DNA of 64,000 bases from Nitrospira sp. Its GTDB lineage: Bacteria; Nitrospirota; Nitrospiria; Nitrospirales; Nitrospiraceae. The notes under the pieces were generated by a model that made no database searches, was not told the DNA's origin, and was given only the letters and a program-made list of their open reading frames with translations. The DNA is taken from contig JAHBWT010000006.1 of the NCBI GenBank assembly GCA_019636815.1, positions 1-64,000 of the forward strand, read 5' to 3'. Every line of letters begins with the position of its first letter. Position 1 is the stretch's first letter. This document shows positions 26,495 through 33,658 of the stretch, piece by piece. The position numbers and the translations under genes are program-made.

Positions 26495-26663
26495 CGCACG
26501 AAACTGAATCGCTGAGCTCGGTTACATATATATCGACAGTTTGCAAGACGGCCCGTTCTTTTTGAGTCTTGCGTGTTCAATTACCTGTTCCCCTTTCTTT
26601 TGCCCGAAAGAGGATCTTATGTTGCACCTGTCGATTCATGAGACAGAACTCGCTGGCATCTCC

Positions 26664-27060
26664 CTCGAAAACGATGGCATCTCAAAAGTAGAGTAGACTG
26701 GCAGCTTCGGCGGTCTTCGACGAAAGGAATGGACCCATGAAGCGATCAAAGTTTAGCGAAGAGCAGATTGTCTACCCCCTTCGACAAGCCGAATCGAGCA
26801 CCCCGATTGGGGATCTGTGCGGCAACACTGGACTGCCGAGCAAGCCTTCTCCGCCTGGAAAAAGAAGTACGCGCATCTATGGGTCAGCGAGCTGCGGCGG
26901 CTCTGGCAGGTGGAAAAAGAGAACCGCCGCTCGAAGTGGCTGGTGCCCGATCTCTCGCTCGATAAGCACATGCTCTCGGAGGCGCTCCGAAAAACAGTCT
27001 GAGGCCTGCCCGCACAGCGCACGGGGCACCTGACGCCGAGTGAGTTTATCAGCCCACGTC
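26664..27060 (+). mobile_element. IS3-family remnant with broken orfA
   Basis: The left end (TCGAAAACGATGGCATCTC, AAAGTAGAGTAGACTGG) matches that at 9196. From the ATG at 26737 orfA reads MKRSKFSEEQIVYPLRQAES then loses frame after about 28 codons; the remainder continues one frame over as TAEQAFSAWKKKYAHLWVSE and ends LSLDKHMLSEALRKTV at 27002. orfB is missing: downstream 27003-27248 has no coding sequence I can recognise. Not mobile by itself. Confidence 0.85.
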
Positions 27061-27248
27061 AGGACGAACGAAAACATCCACTTGGTCGATAGACACCACC
27101 TTCGAGAGTTCAGGTTTCATGCATGAGATTACGGTACCATTTGTCACGTTTCTAGTCCTATCCCGCACCGCTTGTTTTGTGACTCCTCGTGGATACATTC
27201 TTCCCATTGCTTCATCTCCCGCTTGATTAGCCGGAGCCGCTCAGCACC

Positions 27249-28184
27249 TCAACGGTCTTGAAGAGCCCCATCCGTTAACGGGATGGCAGGACAGAGATCT
27301 TGAGGAGAATTACCGGATCTTTTTGGAAACTGCTCTCTCCTCAACTCCGTGCCATTGCTCTCGCGATATACGAGTTCGTCAGTATCGAGGTCATATTCAG
27401 GAATCTCAGGACTTTCCCATCTTCTCGTGAAGTATTGATAGAAGAGCGTATACAGGCCATAGTCATTCTGGTTTTGCTCAAAGACATATTCTGGCATCGT
27501 GTGTACATCCAAACCGGTGTGATAATGCTGCAACCAGATGAAATCACCGAGGATGGCCAGTTTGACATGTGGAGGGTCCGAATAGAGTTTGAGGCGGACG
27601 GACTTCTGGCCAGCCTTGAGTCGTTTGCACAACTCGATAGATTGTTCGATCTCTTCACCGAGAGCCTCAGGGGTCACCGCGGAATCAAGGAGGGCGCTCG
27701 CCCGGATCCGTGCTCCTTCACTGTAGGGGTTGAGCAACATAATTTTGGATTCTAAGGATTTCCAGATGCGTGTATGCAGATGCCCTTCCGGTTTCACGAA
27801 GGTGTGGTACCCAGTGGATCCAATGATCATGAGATTCTTGGCTCGAGCTTGTCTGGTGAGCACCTGATCCATTTGAGTCCGAGTGAGAGTTCCATTGGCG
27901 GGGAACACATATTTGAGTCCCGCATACGTCGCCATCTCGGCAAGACGTTGATTCTTCATCGTGCGGCACAGACCATTGATCCCGGCAATGAGTAAAATGG
28001 CCACGGCAACTTCAACGGCAATGACCGCCACTTTATTGTTCTCAATAGCCGACTGGGCGACAAAGTTCGCCGCATTCGGCAGAGCCGATGCAACTCCTGC
28101 ACTCAGGGTGATGACGGCCACATGATACACAACTAGTCCGACTTCCTCGAGAAACTCCCGGCGATTGGTCAATCTCTCAGTCAT
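27249..28184 (-). CDS. Unrecognised membrane protein with a phospholipase D-like C-terminal half
   Basis: 311 residues from MTERLTNRREFLEEVGLVVY; the frame extends to 28268 but this ATG overlaps the stop of the upstream gene by four bases (ATGA). Two hydrophobic segments (VVYHVAVITLSAGVASALPN and VAVIAVEVAVAILLIAGING) are followed by a soluble domain: NLMIIGSTGYHTFVKPEGHL, SKIMLLNPYSEGARIRASAL and PPHVKLAILGDFIWLQHYHT. The HxK with a following hydrophobic strand resembles half a PLD (HKD) motif but no full HxKxxxxD is seen. Lies between two IS3 remnants. Function unknown. Confidence 0.7.
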   Translation of the reverse strand: MTERLTNRREFLEEVGLVVYHVAVITLSAGVASALPNAANFVAQSAIENNKVAVIAVEVAVAILLIAGINGLCRTMKNQRLAEMATYAGLKYVFPANGTLTRTQMDQVLTRQARAKNLMIIGSTGYHTFVKPEGHLHTRIWKSLESKIMLLNPYSEGARIRASALLDSAVTPEALGEEIEQSIELCKRLKAGQKSVRLKLYSDPPHVKLAILGDFIWLQHYHTGLDVHTMPEYVFEQNQNDYGLYTLFYQYFTRRWESPEIPEYDLDTDELVYRESNGTELRREQFPKRSGNSPQDLCPAIPLTDGALQDR

Positions 28185-28537
28185 AATTGGACCTCTCCAT
28201 GGACGGTTCCTGTGCGCCTCTTTACCAACTCGAAAGAATGTTGAACGCTTGAGGCAAGCACTACCCACGTGGTATGCAGATCGAGAGAGAACTGTTTAGG
28301 AGGATCTCTAGACAGCAGGACGGCTAAGGGGGTTTGGCCATCAGTGGATCGCAGCCGGTATATCGAAAAGAACCACAACCAAGGCGGTGCCAGTGCGAGC
28401 AGAACTCCTTGCAGTGTCGGATAGTATTTCTGAGCACAACAAGCCTGTTGGTTGGATCGTGTAACGTGAGCTTCCTGACAGATATCTTCCTCCCCTGAAT
28501 AACGATCCAGGAGTGAACGTACGGCACGGCATGTCAT
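28181..28537 (-). CDS. Hypothetical protein coupled to the membrane protein gene
   Basis: 118 residues beginning MTCRAVRSLLDRYSGEEDIC and containing several cysteines (C3, C20, C33-C34) and a short hydrophobic stretch (LLALAPPWLWFFSIY). The opening loosely recalls zinc-finger anti-sigma factors (MxCxxVRxLL ... H ... CC), but the rest does not fit. Its TGA overlaps the ATG of the next gene, which supports it as a real, translationally coupled partner. It may itself be damaged by a frameshift. Confidence 0.4.
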   Translation of the reverse strand: MTCRAVRSLLDRYSGEEDICQEAHVTRSNQQACCAQKYYPTLQGVLLALAPPWLWFFSIYRLRSTDGQTPLAVLLSRDPPKQFSLDLHTTWVVLASSVQHSFELVKRRTGTVHGEVQL

Positions 28538-29222
28538 CGTTAGTTCCTTTGCAGGTTCTCATCAACGACTACACCCTATCAAACAGCATTTTCATACATA
28601 TTACTGTCATGTTAAATCTTACTGTTATGGAACAATTTAATGTCCAATGAGATAACCTGGCTATCTCCTGCTCGGCTCTCGTGATGGCGATCTCACCTCT
28701 TGAAGCCGAATCTGCTCGTCTCGATGAAATCCACCAAGCGTCGCCCTGAACAGACGGTCATAACTCTGGTCTATGGGAAGATCATCTCGACGAAGCAGGG
28801 AGAGCCATGGAGTTCATGAACTTAGACGGTCTGGTCAACTTGTCTGATGCAGAATATTGCTCAGCATCTATGGGATACTGTCACCTGGTGGCCACGAATC
28901 ACGCCTATGTCGTGACAGTCATGGTCGAAGGGACTTCCCACCTCACCTTCACGGTCAAACCCCTCTTTGCTGAACATCCAGGGCCTAGCCCGCACCCATC
29001 TGGGGTTCCCATTCAAAGAGGCATAGACCACATGGGCATGCACGTTGACTGACGTTGGTCCCATTCCGAGACAACTATTAACCTGAGCAGATGACTGCTT
29101 CGGTGGTCGGTTGTTCCTGACGCTGAGTGATAAACTTGCTCGGGGGCAGGTTCCCAAGCGAGCTATATGGGAAGGCCTATGAGGAATCAGCGCAGATCGT
29201 AGAATGTCGACTGAAGTACACC
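28538..29222. other. Long region without a convincing gene
   Basis: 685 bp between the two-gene membrane module and the IS3 orfB remnant. An 81-codon frame on plus (28807-29049) and a 98-codon frame on minus exist but neither shows a family pattern or ribosome binding site. GC is lower near 28570-28640. Confidence 0.4.
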
Positions 29223-29783
29223 TTCACCAAGTCCCATCGCCGAGAGTGTGATACGGCCATGATGTGCCGTCTTCTCGACGTGTCGCGCAGCGGATTCTAG
29301 GCCTGGTTACGGAACCCCCTCTCCGATCGAGCGGTGGAGGATCAGCGCTTGCTCGGCCTGATCCATGCGGCCTATACGGCGAGCCACGGTGTCTATGGTG
29401 CCTCTCGTATCGTTCTCGATTCGCGAGAAGCGGGGGAGACCTGTAGCAAACATCGTGTTGCGCGGCTTAATGAGGATTAATAACTTGACCGGTACGGCTA
29501 CCGCGCTCCCCCGGTATATCAAAGGCCACACGGCACTTCTGACACCCACTACGCTGCAACGAGGGTTTACCGTCCCCCGACTAAATCAAGCCTGGATCAC
29601 CGACAGTACGTACGTGCGCACGTGGGAAGACTGGCTCTCTCTGGCTGTCGTGATAAACCTCTACTCTCACCGCATTGTCGGCTGGTCCACAACGCCCATG
29701 ATGACCCAAGACCTCGTGCTGGATGCGCTTCTCATGGCCGTGCGGTGGCGCATGCCTAAGAACACCCTCGGCACAGTCATCTG
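29223..29783 (+). mobile_element. IS3-family orfB remnant (transposase core)
   Basis: 29223-29457 reads as the orfB N-terminus, KSHRRECDTAMMCRLLDVSR, with an in-frame TAG at 29298-29300, then RLLGLIHAAYTASHGVYGAS, and a TAA. After a frame change the integrase core continues to 29783: TVPRLNQAWITDSTYVRTWE contains the first catalytic Asp, followed by LSLAVVINLYSHRIVGWSTT. The third acidic residue region is lost. Degraded copy of an element related to those at 9.2 and 26.7 kb. Confidence 0.82.
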
Positions 29784-30084
29784 AGCGGAGTCAGTCCAGA
29801 GGTATTTGAAGCAGTATCGCTCCGGGCGTAAAGGTGTCCACAAAAGTCTGGGAAGCCCAAACTGATCCTCTTCTACTTTTCTTCATGCAGCGCGCAGGGG
29901 AACCATGGAATACAGATACCGGCGCACGACTCCGCGATGTACGCTGAGATGTGCGCAACGCCAGCCCGGGGGGGCCGGCGTTGTTCGCGGCTATCACCGG
30001 AACCGACGTGGCCACGTACACGTGCGACGAGGTATGAGCGCGCATTCATGCTCGCAATGAATGCTTTAAAAACGCTCAGAATCC
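29784..30084. other. Intergenic region with a GC hairpin
   Basis: No gene seen. Contains an imperfect hairpin with arms CAACGCC and GGCGTTG at 29956-29983, which could end transcripts of the phytase-like gene on the minus strand although no T-tract follows. The 5' part (29784-29870) may still be IS3 orfB 3' debris. Confidence 0.35.
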
Positions 30085-31484
30085 TCATGGTTCGTTGTTA
30101 ATACCGCCTGGGAAGGGTGGACCTGGACGAACAAAGGTGCCGAGATCGGCTTCCGACACTTTGTAGGCTAGGAGCATACCCGGCAGCAGTGCGTAATCAG
30201 TCGTCAGCGTTGCCGGACCGGTTGAATCACCGTTCGCATCGTGAAAAAAGCAGCCGCTCGTCCGTCCCAGCGGGCAGAAGATGGACGTTTGATAGGGGTC
30301 GGCATCGGTCATGCGAAAATACACGTCGAATTGCTGACCGCTCGAGTTCTGCGTCACACTGTAGTCGTTGTCCGTGCCGATCACCAGGAGGTAGCTGCCG
30401 TCTTTCAAGCGGGGTCCGATGGCCAATCCCTCCAACTTCTCCGGCAGCTTGTTCCCCAGTTCAGGAAGCGTGTGAGTGATTTCTAGGAAGGGAGTCGCGA
30501 CCTTCGTCACCTTGCCGGCTGGACAATTAGCAGCAGAGAACGCCGCCGCGGGTGGGCTGAAGTCCGTCGCGGCTGTCATGTCGATGCGGAATAGTTTCTT
30601 GTTGGGCGGTGTCAGCTCCGCCCCCACGCCGATGCCTCGATTGTTTCGTTCGAGGACCAAGAATTCGTGATCGTTGATCGCGAATAGGCCGAGATCCCGC
30701 GGCCCTGGCTGGAGCCTTCCATCTGATAGGCGTACTGGGCAACCGCGGTTCCGGATTCAGTGCTAAATTTCACGATGCGGTTGCACACGCCGTCGCCACC
30801 GCCTTCGTCGAGCATCGCGCTTTGCAGCATAGCATAGAGGTAGTGGCCGTCGGGGCTGATGGCAAGCCCTTCGAATCCGCGGTTTGTCCGTTTCCCTTTG
30901 GTATTGCCGGTGTCGCTGGCAAAGTTCGGCATAGTGGCGTTATCGCGCGGGATGAGGTTGGCCGGGGTGACGAACGTCCTTACGCGGACTCCTTTGTCGT
31001 TGAATTCGTACAGCGAGGGCCCGTACTCGTCCGAGACATAGGAATTATGAGTGCGAGGGTTGATGACGAAGCCCTCAGGATCGAAGGCGTTCCCGAGAAC
31101 GCTCGGCGGATTGGGGGCGATGCCATCCAGAGGATTGCGAAATTCGTCCTTGAAGACAATGGTCCCCAGGATTTTGAAGCCGCTGATCGCTCCGGTCTTG
31201 TTGTCCACCTTCAGGCGAAATTGTTGAACCCGAGTCTGGTAGTTCAGGAAGCCGCCCCCCGGGCCGCGGTCGGAGAGGCCCCACCATTGATTGCGCTGTG
31301 GATCGTAGTAAATGTCCGAGAAATAACCGACGCGGCCCGTGTTGGCGTCCGTGCCGCCGCTGCGGTCCAGCAGCGCGCCGTCAAGCACGAGACCATTGAC
31401 GAACTCGGGCGCAGCTCGGACAACAGGAGCCGTAGCGGCGCAGATGAGGGCGAGACCGATGGTGAGAGCCGTGAGACGGATCAT
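30085..31484 (-). pseudogene. Esterase-like phytase-family exported protein, frameshifted
   Basis: Starts at the ATG at 31484 behind CGGAGGTCACA, with signal peptide LTALTIGLALICAATAPVVR. The first frame carries the family pattern (YDPQRNQWWGLSDRGPGGGF, FDPEGFVINPRTHNSYVSDE, GFEGLAISPDGHYLYAMLQS) up to GSSQGRGISA. From near 30685 the continuation is one frame over: INDHEFLVLERNNRGIGVGA, then KLEGLAIGPRLKDGSYLLVI and a normal end at 30085. One missing base explains this. Intact, it would be about 465 residues of beta-propeller with secreted phosphoesterase-like activity. Real mutation or sequence error cannot be told apart. Confidence 0.85.
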
Positions 31485-31620
31485 TGTGACCTCCGATGTT
31501 TGAACGGCACGTGAATAAGCAGTGGGAAGACCCACTCCAGAGTAAGAGTACGGGTGTCACATGTAAGCAAAGAGGTTTATTGGAGCATCAGGCCGGAATG
31601 AAGATTGGGTAAATACTTGG

Positions 31621-31944
31621 TTACCGGTGTGTTAGTGGCTGGAAGTAGTCTATGCCGCTGAGCGGAGGGGCGGCCTTTTCCAACTTCGTGCCCACCCTCG
31701 TCCAGACAGTTCCACGCCGTTTTCCCTGCATAGCCGTTCGAACTGTCATCTCGATATCTTGGCAGAGCAGCGAAAGAAAGCGGACGAGACGCTCGATGGA
31801 GAATCCAGCCATTTGACCAGCCAGAAGTTTTGACACCTTGGCTTGGTCAATCCCCCGCTGAGCCGCCACTTCAACCTGTTTCCAGCTACGCCCTTTGATG
31901 AGTGTCGGCCACATAGTCGCTTGGAATTCTTGACTCCCTGTCAT
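31621..31944 (-). CDS. HTH-type (XRE-like) antitoxin
   Basis: About 107 residues from MTGSQEFQATMWPTLIKGRS. A helix-turn-helix is visible (WKQVEVAAQRGIDQAKVSKL, then LAGQMAGFSIERLVRFLSLL), the arrangement of HigA2/HTH_37 antitoxins, which usually follow a RelE/HigB toxin gene. No toxin gene is present upstream: instead a divergent antitoxin starts 42 bp away. It may be an orphan or a leftover. Start codon uncertain. Confidence 0.65.
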   Translation of the reverse strand: MTGSQEFQATMWPTLIKGRSWKQVEVAAQRGIDQAKVSKLLAGQMAGFSIERLVRFLSLLCQDIEMTVRTAMQGKRRGTVWTRVGTKLEKAAPPLSGIDYFQPLTHR

Positions 31945-31985
31945 GTAGAGCCTAAACTTCAGACCAAGCAACGTGAGGGACATTG

Positions 31986-32165
31986 ATGCCCACAGCAAAA
32001 AAGCAGGCCATTGATATGGTGAAGAAGTTGCCTGAGAAAGCGACATGGGACGATATTATGCATGAAATTTTCGTCCGCAAGAAGATTGATGCCGGTATCC
32101 ACGCCGCTGATGAAGGGAGAGTCGTTCCGCACGAAGTGGTGAGAAAGCGTTTCCTCAAGAAATGA
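31986..32165 (+). CDS. Short antitoxin paired with ParE-like toxin
   Basis: 59 residues, AIDMVKKLPEKATWDDIMHE, then IFVRKKIDAGIHAADEGRVV and PHEVVRKRFLKK. The KLPExATWDDIMxxIxxRxxIxxGL pattern is that of small RelB/ParD-like antitoxins paired with ParE/RelE toxins. Its TGA overlaps the start of the toxin gene (ATGA at 32162-32165). Confidence 0.8.
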   Translation: MPTAKKQAIDMVKKLPEKATWDDIMHEIFVRKKIDAGIHAADEGRVVPHEVVRKRFLKK

Positions 32166-32314
32166 CCAGAGTTGAATGGACTGAGCCCGCCATTTCCGAT
32201 CTCGAGAACATCCAAAACTACATTGCCAGAGATTCTGCCGAGTACGCCGATGCTATGGTCGAGGGTCTCGTCCTCTCTGTGGGTCGGCTCGCCTTTTCCC
32301 GCCTGATCCATTAG
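32162..32314 (+). pseudogene. ParE/RelE-family toxin, truncated
   Basis: Begins like a full ParE toxin (MTRVEWTEPAISDLENIQNY, IARDSAEYADAMVEGL) but after VGRLA runs into FSRLIH and stops at 50 residues, about half the normal 95-100. The normal SFPxxGRxVPE segment and the C-terminal catalytic strand are lost, most simply by a frameshift at GCCTTTTCCCGCC followed by deletion. The following 120 bp do not restore the toxin. The antitoxin next to it is intact. Confidence 0.8.
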
Positions 32315-32435
32315 CCAATTCTGATCTCGGCAGGTTGCAGGAGACGAGAAACCTTGCGAGAACGCGTCTTGATGAAAAAGGACGAGCTAATGGCACGTGC
32401 AACCAAAGATAGCCCCGCGATGCCCGTCTGCTCGT

Positions 32436-32819
32436 TCACGGTGCGCCTTGCCATAACATGTCATAGCCGAGCTCCTTGGTCTCCGAGCACATGTTCGCCA
32501 AAGATGAAAACTTGCTGGTAAATACTTCGTCGGCATGGGACTTCTCGTGCGCCTCAAAGGATCGCCAATACGTCACGATGGCGTAATGTTCGTCGGTGGT
32601 TTTGTTGTCGACCAGCGAGCCTTCCTCGGACACGAAGCCGGAAAACTTGAAGACTTGTCCGGCCAAGAAGCCCCCCTTCTCACCGCCGTAGGTTTCCTTG
32701 ACCACCATGCACATTTCTCCAACGGCCAACTCGACGTCTTCGAAACTGACGCCGGGTTTCAGCTTCACAATATTGAACAACATCTTGGCTCCAAACGGCA
32801 GCGTAATTGGGCCGAACAT
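32436..32819 (-). CDS. Antibiotic biosynthesis monooxygenase-like / dimeric alpha-beta barrel protein
   Basis: 127 residues; GGAGGTTCAC before the ATG. Ordered as strand-helix-strand repeats (MLFNIVKLKPGVSFEDVELA, EHYAIVTYWRSFEAHEKSHA). TYWRSFEAHEKSH is reminiscent of the YWxSxEAxxxxH signature of ABM-like heme-degrading or ligand-binding proteins. No cofactor can be named. Confidence 0.6.
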   Translation of the reverse strand: MFGPITLPFGAKMLFNIVKLKPGVSFEDVELAVGEMCMVVKETYGGEKGGFLAGQVFKFSGFVSEEGSLVDNKTTDEHYAIVTYWRSFEAHEKSHADEVFTSKFSSLANMCSETKELGYDMLWQGAP

Positions 32820-32929
32820 GTGAACCTCCTATGAAAGGCTGGGACAAGCCACAATCGAGCCGGTGATTCCGGCAGCATATCCGGCTCGCATTAGATAGTC
32901 TACCCGGAGCGAGCTGTCGCAAATCGTGG

Positions 32930-33324
32930 TCAGTCCTTGACTTTGCACACGGCAAAGACTCGGGCCTGCTGAGGAAACCGTGATGCGGCTTCGATGGCGT
33001 TCTGAATTTTCGAAATTCGTGATATGGAGAGATGCGAAAGCGAATCGTGACCTCGACATCTTGACCCATCGGCGAGAGAACGTGAACAGGGCGTTCGATC
33101 GAAACCCAGCCATCGGTCTGTGAGAAGTCTCGACACCTTGCCTTGACGGTGCACTGCTGGCTTGCTAAGGTTTGAGCGCACGGGGACACCAAATGCCTAA
33201 AGTTGGCCATCCACACATCATTACCGAGATAATCGAGCGGAGAGCGATGGTGAGATCGAGGAGAATCGTGAAGAGCACCTGCGAAAACAGCACCCTGCTT
33301 AATCCCTAGCCTTCGCCAGTTCAT
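32930..33324 (-). pseudogene. Unrecognised protein gene with a probable frameshift
   Basis: From the ATG at 33324 the frame is coding-like through QTDGWVSIERPVHVLSPMGQ and DVEVTIRFRISPYHEFRK. After that the coding character continues one frame over as IQNAIEAASRFPQQARVFAV and ends KVKD at 32930. One base lost or gained near 33005 would explain it. I do not recognise the family. It lies between the ABM-like gene and the DUF2007 gene. Confidence 0.4.
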
Positions 33325-33340
33325 ATAAGAATCAATACCA

Positions 33341-33658
33341 ATGAGAAAAGTCTTCGTCTCTCAGAATTTGATCGAGGTCGAGATGCGCAAGGAGCGACTT
33401 GAGCAGGCCGGCATCCGATGCATGATCAAGAATCAGCGTTTATCGGGACTTGCGGGAGAGATTCCCTTTGCGGAGATTTTCCCGGAACTGTGGGTCATTC
33501 GAGACGAGGATGCCTACCGGGCACGACAAGTACTGGAAGAAGAGTTGATCTCGCAGCCGTCAAACCCAGACTCCTGGGTATGCGCCGGGTGCGGTGAACA
33601 TCACGAGAGTCAATTTTCGGAATGTTGGAAATGCGGACGAGCGAGCGCGGCGCCGTGA
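33341..33658 (+). CDS. DUF2007 (putative signal-transducing) protein with zinc ribbon
   Basis: 105 residues. N-terminal DUF2007 domain (MRKVFVSQNLIEVEMRKERL, then EQAGIRCMIKNQRLSGLAGE, ELWVIRDEDAYRARQVLEE), a small alpha-beta PII-like fold. The C-terminus has CAGCGEHHE ... CWKCGRA, a four-cysteine zinc ribbon. Function unknown; widespread in Nitrospira-like and delta-proteobacterial genomes from memory. Confidence 0.85.
   Translation: MRKVFVSQNLIEVEMRKERLEQAGIRCMIKNQRLSGLAGEIPFAEIFPELWVIRDEDAYRARQVLEEELISQPSNPDSWVCAGCGEHHESQFSECWKCGRASAAP

Follow-up and report, generated by a model that had tools for sequence, protein, structure and literature searches.

Two minus-strand open frames that share an ATGA (28181-28184), lying between insertion-sequence scars in a Nitrospira sp. 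genome, raise the question of what they encode and whether they belong together. We analyzed them within a window of 64,000 nucleotides (contig JAHBWT010000006.1, positions 1 to 64,000; assembly GCA_019636815.1). A sequence-only reading of this DNA had described a coupled two-gene membrane module of unknown function: a 118-residue protein, followed by a double-span membrane protein with a PLD-like C-terminal domain. Both frames and their overlap are seen in the sequence (Table 1), and the larger, 311-aa gene is real. Its codon score (0.105) exceeds the lower quartile of the coding stretches in the window (0.085) and falls short of their median (0.127), and the N-termini of its homologues favor the ATG listed in Table 1 as its start, over an upstream GTG at 28268.

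Table 1. Features of the locus, in window coordinates.
Feature	Positions	Strand	Details and basis
Gene for 311-aa membrane-anchored protein, predicted degenerate PLD fold	27249..28184	-	coding 27252-28184; ATG at 28184, stop 27249-27251
Two-helix transmembrane hairpin, ~residues 17-70	27975..28136	-	hydropathy; model helices 2-42, 50-87
Predicted PLD-fold domain, ~residues 90-286, with K208, D214, H220, H222, E232 and tail PEYDLDTDELVYR	27327..27917	-	model, Foldseek, column counts
118-aa open frame, claimed partner, probably spurious	28181..28537	-	no relatives, codon score, length
~6.8-kb genome-specific insertion between DUF4177 gene (after polA) and DUF2007 gene	26500..33340	.	empty in close relatives
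IS3-family remnant: OrfA start, frameshifted, into OrfB C-terminal piece (GHLTPSEFIS, 27008-27069)	26737..27069	+	HTH_Tnp_1 match, end copies
The same IS3-family end in inverted orientation, with terminal repeat TGACGTTGG... and OrfB C-terminus	29049..29171	-	E=2.5e-6 against 27008-27069
Second IS3-family OrfB remnant (rve), frameshifted	29127..29784	+	rve match 29365-29784, E=1.2e-11; reading frames

The claim of a two-gene module is not borne out by comparison with other genomes. For the 118-aa frame, 59 near genomes and 198 genomes of the phylum yielded no relative beyond chance, and the plasmid collection none; the frame is missing beside all ~50 homologues of the 311-aa gene, and with this partner absent from every homologous locus the pair does not qualify as a toxin-antitoxin or other two-gene module. 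Two weak matches (L127 and L128) were rejected: they extend over 16 and 38 residues and resemble chance matches. A check of coding potential, which the sequence-only reading had itself put forward, also goes against the frame: with a codon score of -0.028, it falls under the 5th percentile for genuine 118-codon coding stretches in the window (-0.019) and into the range covered by shadow frames. Its length is at the level of chance: dinucleotide shuffling of the 866-bp region that lies upstream of the 311-aa gene yields a frame of at least 118 codons 27 times out of 200. A model built from the single sequence has a pLDDT of 49 and no confident fold, which is weak evidence because no alignment exists. 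All of these observations count against a real operon in which a fast-evolving, lineage-specific 118-aa membrane partner is translationally coupled to the PLD-fold gene. Such an operon, which we consider very unlikely, could draw on the ATGA overlap, on the frame having the highest codon score among the six frames of its stretch, and on a weak promoter-like site at 28615-28588 that is no better than chance. The 118-aa frame is probably a chance reading frame, and its status as a gene is unsupported.

The 311-aa protein, by comparison with its relatives and by modeling, is a member of an undescribed, conserved family of inner-membrane proteins with a predicted PLD fold. Relatives are carried by 52 GTDB genomes, mostly of Nitrospirota and mostly at 42-53% identity; one frameshifted relative reaches 66% over a segment. 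Of 79 genomes in the genus, 18 carry the family, and by profile search it is present in 89 of 396 Nitrospirota genomes, with outlying members in Desulfobulbales, Syntrophales, Methylomirabilis and, distantly, Azospirillum. It is common in Nitrospira and its relatives and is strongly conserved. Four family libraries (Pfam, NCBIfam, PADLOC and PHROGs) were searched, and no model in them covers the protein, which bears out the earlier impression that it has no named family. A sequence profile search of the PDB also returned nothing (best E=0.67). The suggestion of a DUF5919-like protein can be dropped, as the cut-off for that family (PF19319) was not reached in any of 30 family members, the one match having E=0.16. 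Some Nitrospirales copies of the gene are split by frameshifts (L053; G351:C60:75249-76147), which hints at dispensability or assembly error.

The host genome (4.0 Mb, Nitrospira group; the window corresponds to contig C100) has a second copy of the family on contig C78, at 43% identity. In a quick family tree, this paralogue clusters with Nitrospira sp. records, and the window copy stands alone on a long branch (0.6), with the main Nitrospira clade on one side and a clade of deltaproteobacterial and Methylomirabilis members on the other; for so long a row this placement is unsure. The distance between the two copies is expected of an acquired or an old copy; a recent duplication of the paralogue was rejected on the same grounds. 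The window copy retains all 29 invariant columns of the family alignment (A1).

The membrane anchor and the C-terminal domain of the sequence-only reading both held up. Kyte-Doolittle hydropathy peaks at residues ~17-35 and ~52-70, and an AlphaFold (AF2) model with 30 homologues in the alignment (pLDDT 82.9) places its two long helices there, followed by an alpha/beta domain at residues 90-285. The matches of this model in Foldseek are PLD-fold proteins, with E-values to 1e-6 and a probability of 1.0 for Nuc, NucT, Zucchini, PLD3 and PssA. Vaccinia F13 and PLD3 lead by E-value; the best-covered matches are single-domain PLDs, and the target TM-scores (TMt) of single-domain Nuc, NucT and Zucchini and of FAM83 are modest, at 0.41-0.59 (Nuc, 1byr: E 2e-4, TMt 0.58; NucT, 6ehi: TMt 0.59; FAM83, 5qhm: TMt 0.55). 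The assignment rests on predicted structure, since profile-profile comparison by hhalign of the family with Nitrospira PLDs (E=0.79) gave no relation at the sequence level. As judged from the model, the protein has the PLD tertiary fold, which is predicted rather than solved.

Does this domain carry the catalytic signature of PLDs? The HVK segment of the window copy had been taken as PLD-like; across 85 homologues the same motif reads L-[VLMI]-K-x4-G-D-x2-W-L-Q-H-Y-H, and position 206 is Leu in 77 of them and His in only 2. The HVK is thus an exception within the family, a tempting motif that can be a coincidence, as can the ATGA overlap. The columns that are near-invariant are others: K208 (83 of 85), G213 (83), D214 (84), H220 (83) and H222 (82), together with E232 and a tail, YDLDTDELVYR (PEYDLDTDELVYR in Table 1), that is nearly invariant across the family. 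The family departs from the signature that catalytic PLDs carry, HxK(x)4D with GSxN, because Leu occupies position 206, the Asp is at +8 from that position and not at +7, and GSxN or GGxN after the HKD is absent, its place being occupied by QHYH. Canonical PLDs of the same genus retain both HxK(x)4D and GSMN. The family also has no Pfam match to catalytic PLDc models (PF13091/PF00614).

Known PLD-fold systems offer partial likenesses. The Nuc and NucT nucleases, like the 311-aa protein, have a single PLD-fold domain; unlike them, the 311-aa protein is without HxK(x)4D or GSxN, and it adds a conserved C-terminal strand hairpin and the N-terminal membrane hairpin. Zucchini/MitoPLD (PLD6; 4ggj, 4h4a) is again a single-domain fold match, with no detectable sequence relation; it is anchored in the membrane by one helix and keeps its HKD motif. 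The archaeal regulators TrmB and TrmBL2 (2f5t, 5bpi) match the model in fold at high rmsd (7-16 Å). In TrmB the PLD-like fold serves ligand binding and not catalysis. TrmB carries a DNA-binding HTH, whereas the N-terminus of the 311-aa protein is a membrane hairpin, so the protein is not of the TrmB type. The DUF1669 domain of FAM83 has a PLD fold that does not perform PLD catalysis, as we propose below for the 311-aa protein; the likeness is one of fold only, as FAM83 is a vertebrate family without the membrane hairpin, and Pfam gives no DUF1669 match in the 311-aa protein. There is precedent in FAM83 for another use of the fold, its non-catalytic PLD domain being an anchor for CK1 kinases (PMC6008594).

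We hypothesize that the 311-aa protein is a membrane-tethered pseudo-PLD sensor or scaffold, encoded by a lone gene, that binds a putative anionic ligand or a partner without PLD catalysis; we give this proposal an even chance of being right. The gene, its family, the predicted fold, the loss of the signature and the insertion are shown by the data presented here; the topology of the protein, its ligand binding and its lack of catalysis are what we infer. The N-terminal two-helix hairpin would keep a single PLD-fold domain on the inner face of the inner membrane, both ends of the hairpin probably being cytoplasmic, as their charge suggests. The domain, devoid of HKD and GSxN, keeps a cluster of basic and His residues (K208, H220 and H222, also R161 and K199) that would sit where the phosphate pocket of a PLD lies, and at the membrane it would most likely bind either a partner protein or a ligand that is phosphorylated or anionic. 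The window copy would have entered the genome with an IS-scarred island, with no genuine partner gene.

It counts against a pseudo-PLD that a Lys, an Asp and a pair of His close to the canonical active site are strongly conserved, which would also fit an altered catalytic center. The main rival is an active phosphodiesterase of the PLD superfamily, in which K208 is kept and H220 or H222, in the place of the GSxN loop, acts as nucleophile; the site may span a homodimer, as in Nuc, NucT or Zucchini. The near-invariance of K208, D214, H220, H222 and E232 speaks for such an enzyme, as do the single-domain PLDs among the best-covered fold matches and the example of Zucchini, which is likewise membrane-anchored and single-domain; nevertheless, HxK(x)4D and GSxN are both absent, and we place this alternative on the unlikely side. 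The invariant residues are scattered across the domain, some of them in a tail outside the PLD core, so that no catalytic site is singled out. Quite doubtful is the bolder version, that the family constitutes a novel class of PLD-fold enzymes anchored in the membrane, whose catalytic His has moved from HxK to H220/H222 and whose substrate at the Nitrospirota inner membrane is a phosphodiester of a nucleotide or a lipid. The pseudo-PLD sensor or scaffold is the best-supported reading; either it or an enzyme with a rearranged site, if true, would extend the PLD fold by a membrane-tethered branch.

The surroundings of the gene bear on how it arrived. In the window, the DUF4177 gene ends near 26497 and the DUF2007 gene is at 33341; in three close relatives (L114, L116 and L117), the sites matching these two positions are only 42-377 bp apart. 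The intervening insertion contains IS3 pieces, the PLD-fold gene, a split phytase-like gene, an HTH_37 gene, a remnant antitoxin and a truncated ParE-like toxin. The IS3 remnants that the sequence-only reading had noticed on either side of the pair are indeed there: a weak HTH_Tnp_1 match (26737-27033, E=0.01), the rve match, and inverted IS3-family ends. Fragments of this end, 120-130 bp long and comprising TGACGTTGG... and the OrfB C-terminus, have at least 7 further copies in the genome; dispersed copies were seen at C123:2751, C56:65318, C51:40909, C58:32538, C46:1229, C78:3, C56:80718 and C99:23531. When considered as an IS3 composite transposon, the locus has like ends in inverted orientation (27008-27069 and 29049-29171); the ends are truncated, and target duplications were not seen around them. 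The inverted repeats were also considered as integron attC sites or a MITE, and this was rejected: they are pieces of the OrfB end of an IS3-family element, terminal repeat included. The inverted ends around the 311-aa gene fit an IS-mediated arrival, and the gene looks to have come in with a scarred island and to encode an accessory protein. The site between polA-DUF4177 and DUF2007/tRNA-Leu is variable among Nitrospira relatives, its contents differing by genome.

Two further explanations lean on this setting. A defence or conflict effector borne on an island, a protein with two membrane helices and a sensing domain that disturbs the membrane once triggered, would suit the architecture of two transmembrane helices and a sensor-like domain, the insertion between IS remnants and beside decayed toxin-antitoxin genes, and the TerY/PP2C/STK triad next to one homologue. 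We nonetheless hold it to be highly doubtful, and the hint of defence or toxin function in the sequence-only reading is not borne out. The homologues are lone genes with varying neighbors, many in stable chromosomal contexts (in Nitrospira, for instance, next to the gene for an RbgA-like GTPase); no known anti-phage system is indicated by PADLOC or PHROGs, and none of 97 neighbors of representative homologues is a recurring defence partner, the PADLOC matches among neighbors being mostly generic helicases, methyltransferases, cysteine desulfurases and ABC ATPases. The family was not found in 50,697 phage records or in IMG/VR, and its relatives on replicons or plasmids are only the distant Azospirillum protein (34%, a full frame of 319 aa) and a C-terminal fragment on a Pseudomonas plasmid. 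It is also very improbable that the window copy is a decaying passenger, an expression-dead relic in a degenerating island: the neighboring phytase-like gene is split, the ParE-like toxin is truncated, the IS3 elements are frameshifted and the terminal branch is long, but the frame of the 311-aa gene is fully open and every family-invariant residue is kept.

Several smaller features accompany these loci. The phytase-like (PF13449) gene at 30085-31535 is split by a frameshift into two frames and is either decayed or misassembled. At 31983-32314, a small antitoxin-like frame precedes a truncated ParE/RelE-like toxin frame; these are toxin-antitoxin remnants by eye, and they adjoin the HTH_37 gene on the opposite strand. 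The TerY/PP2C/STK_OB triad, which is TerY-P-like (L008:1919-4836), is directly downstream of, and convergent with, one Methylomirabilis homologue. The Azospirillum homologue (L130:3229-6186) is on a large replicon between genes for a phage-type N-acetylmuramidase and a DUF6527 protein, a possible prophage setting.
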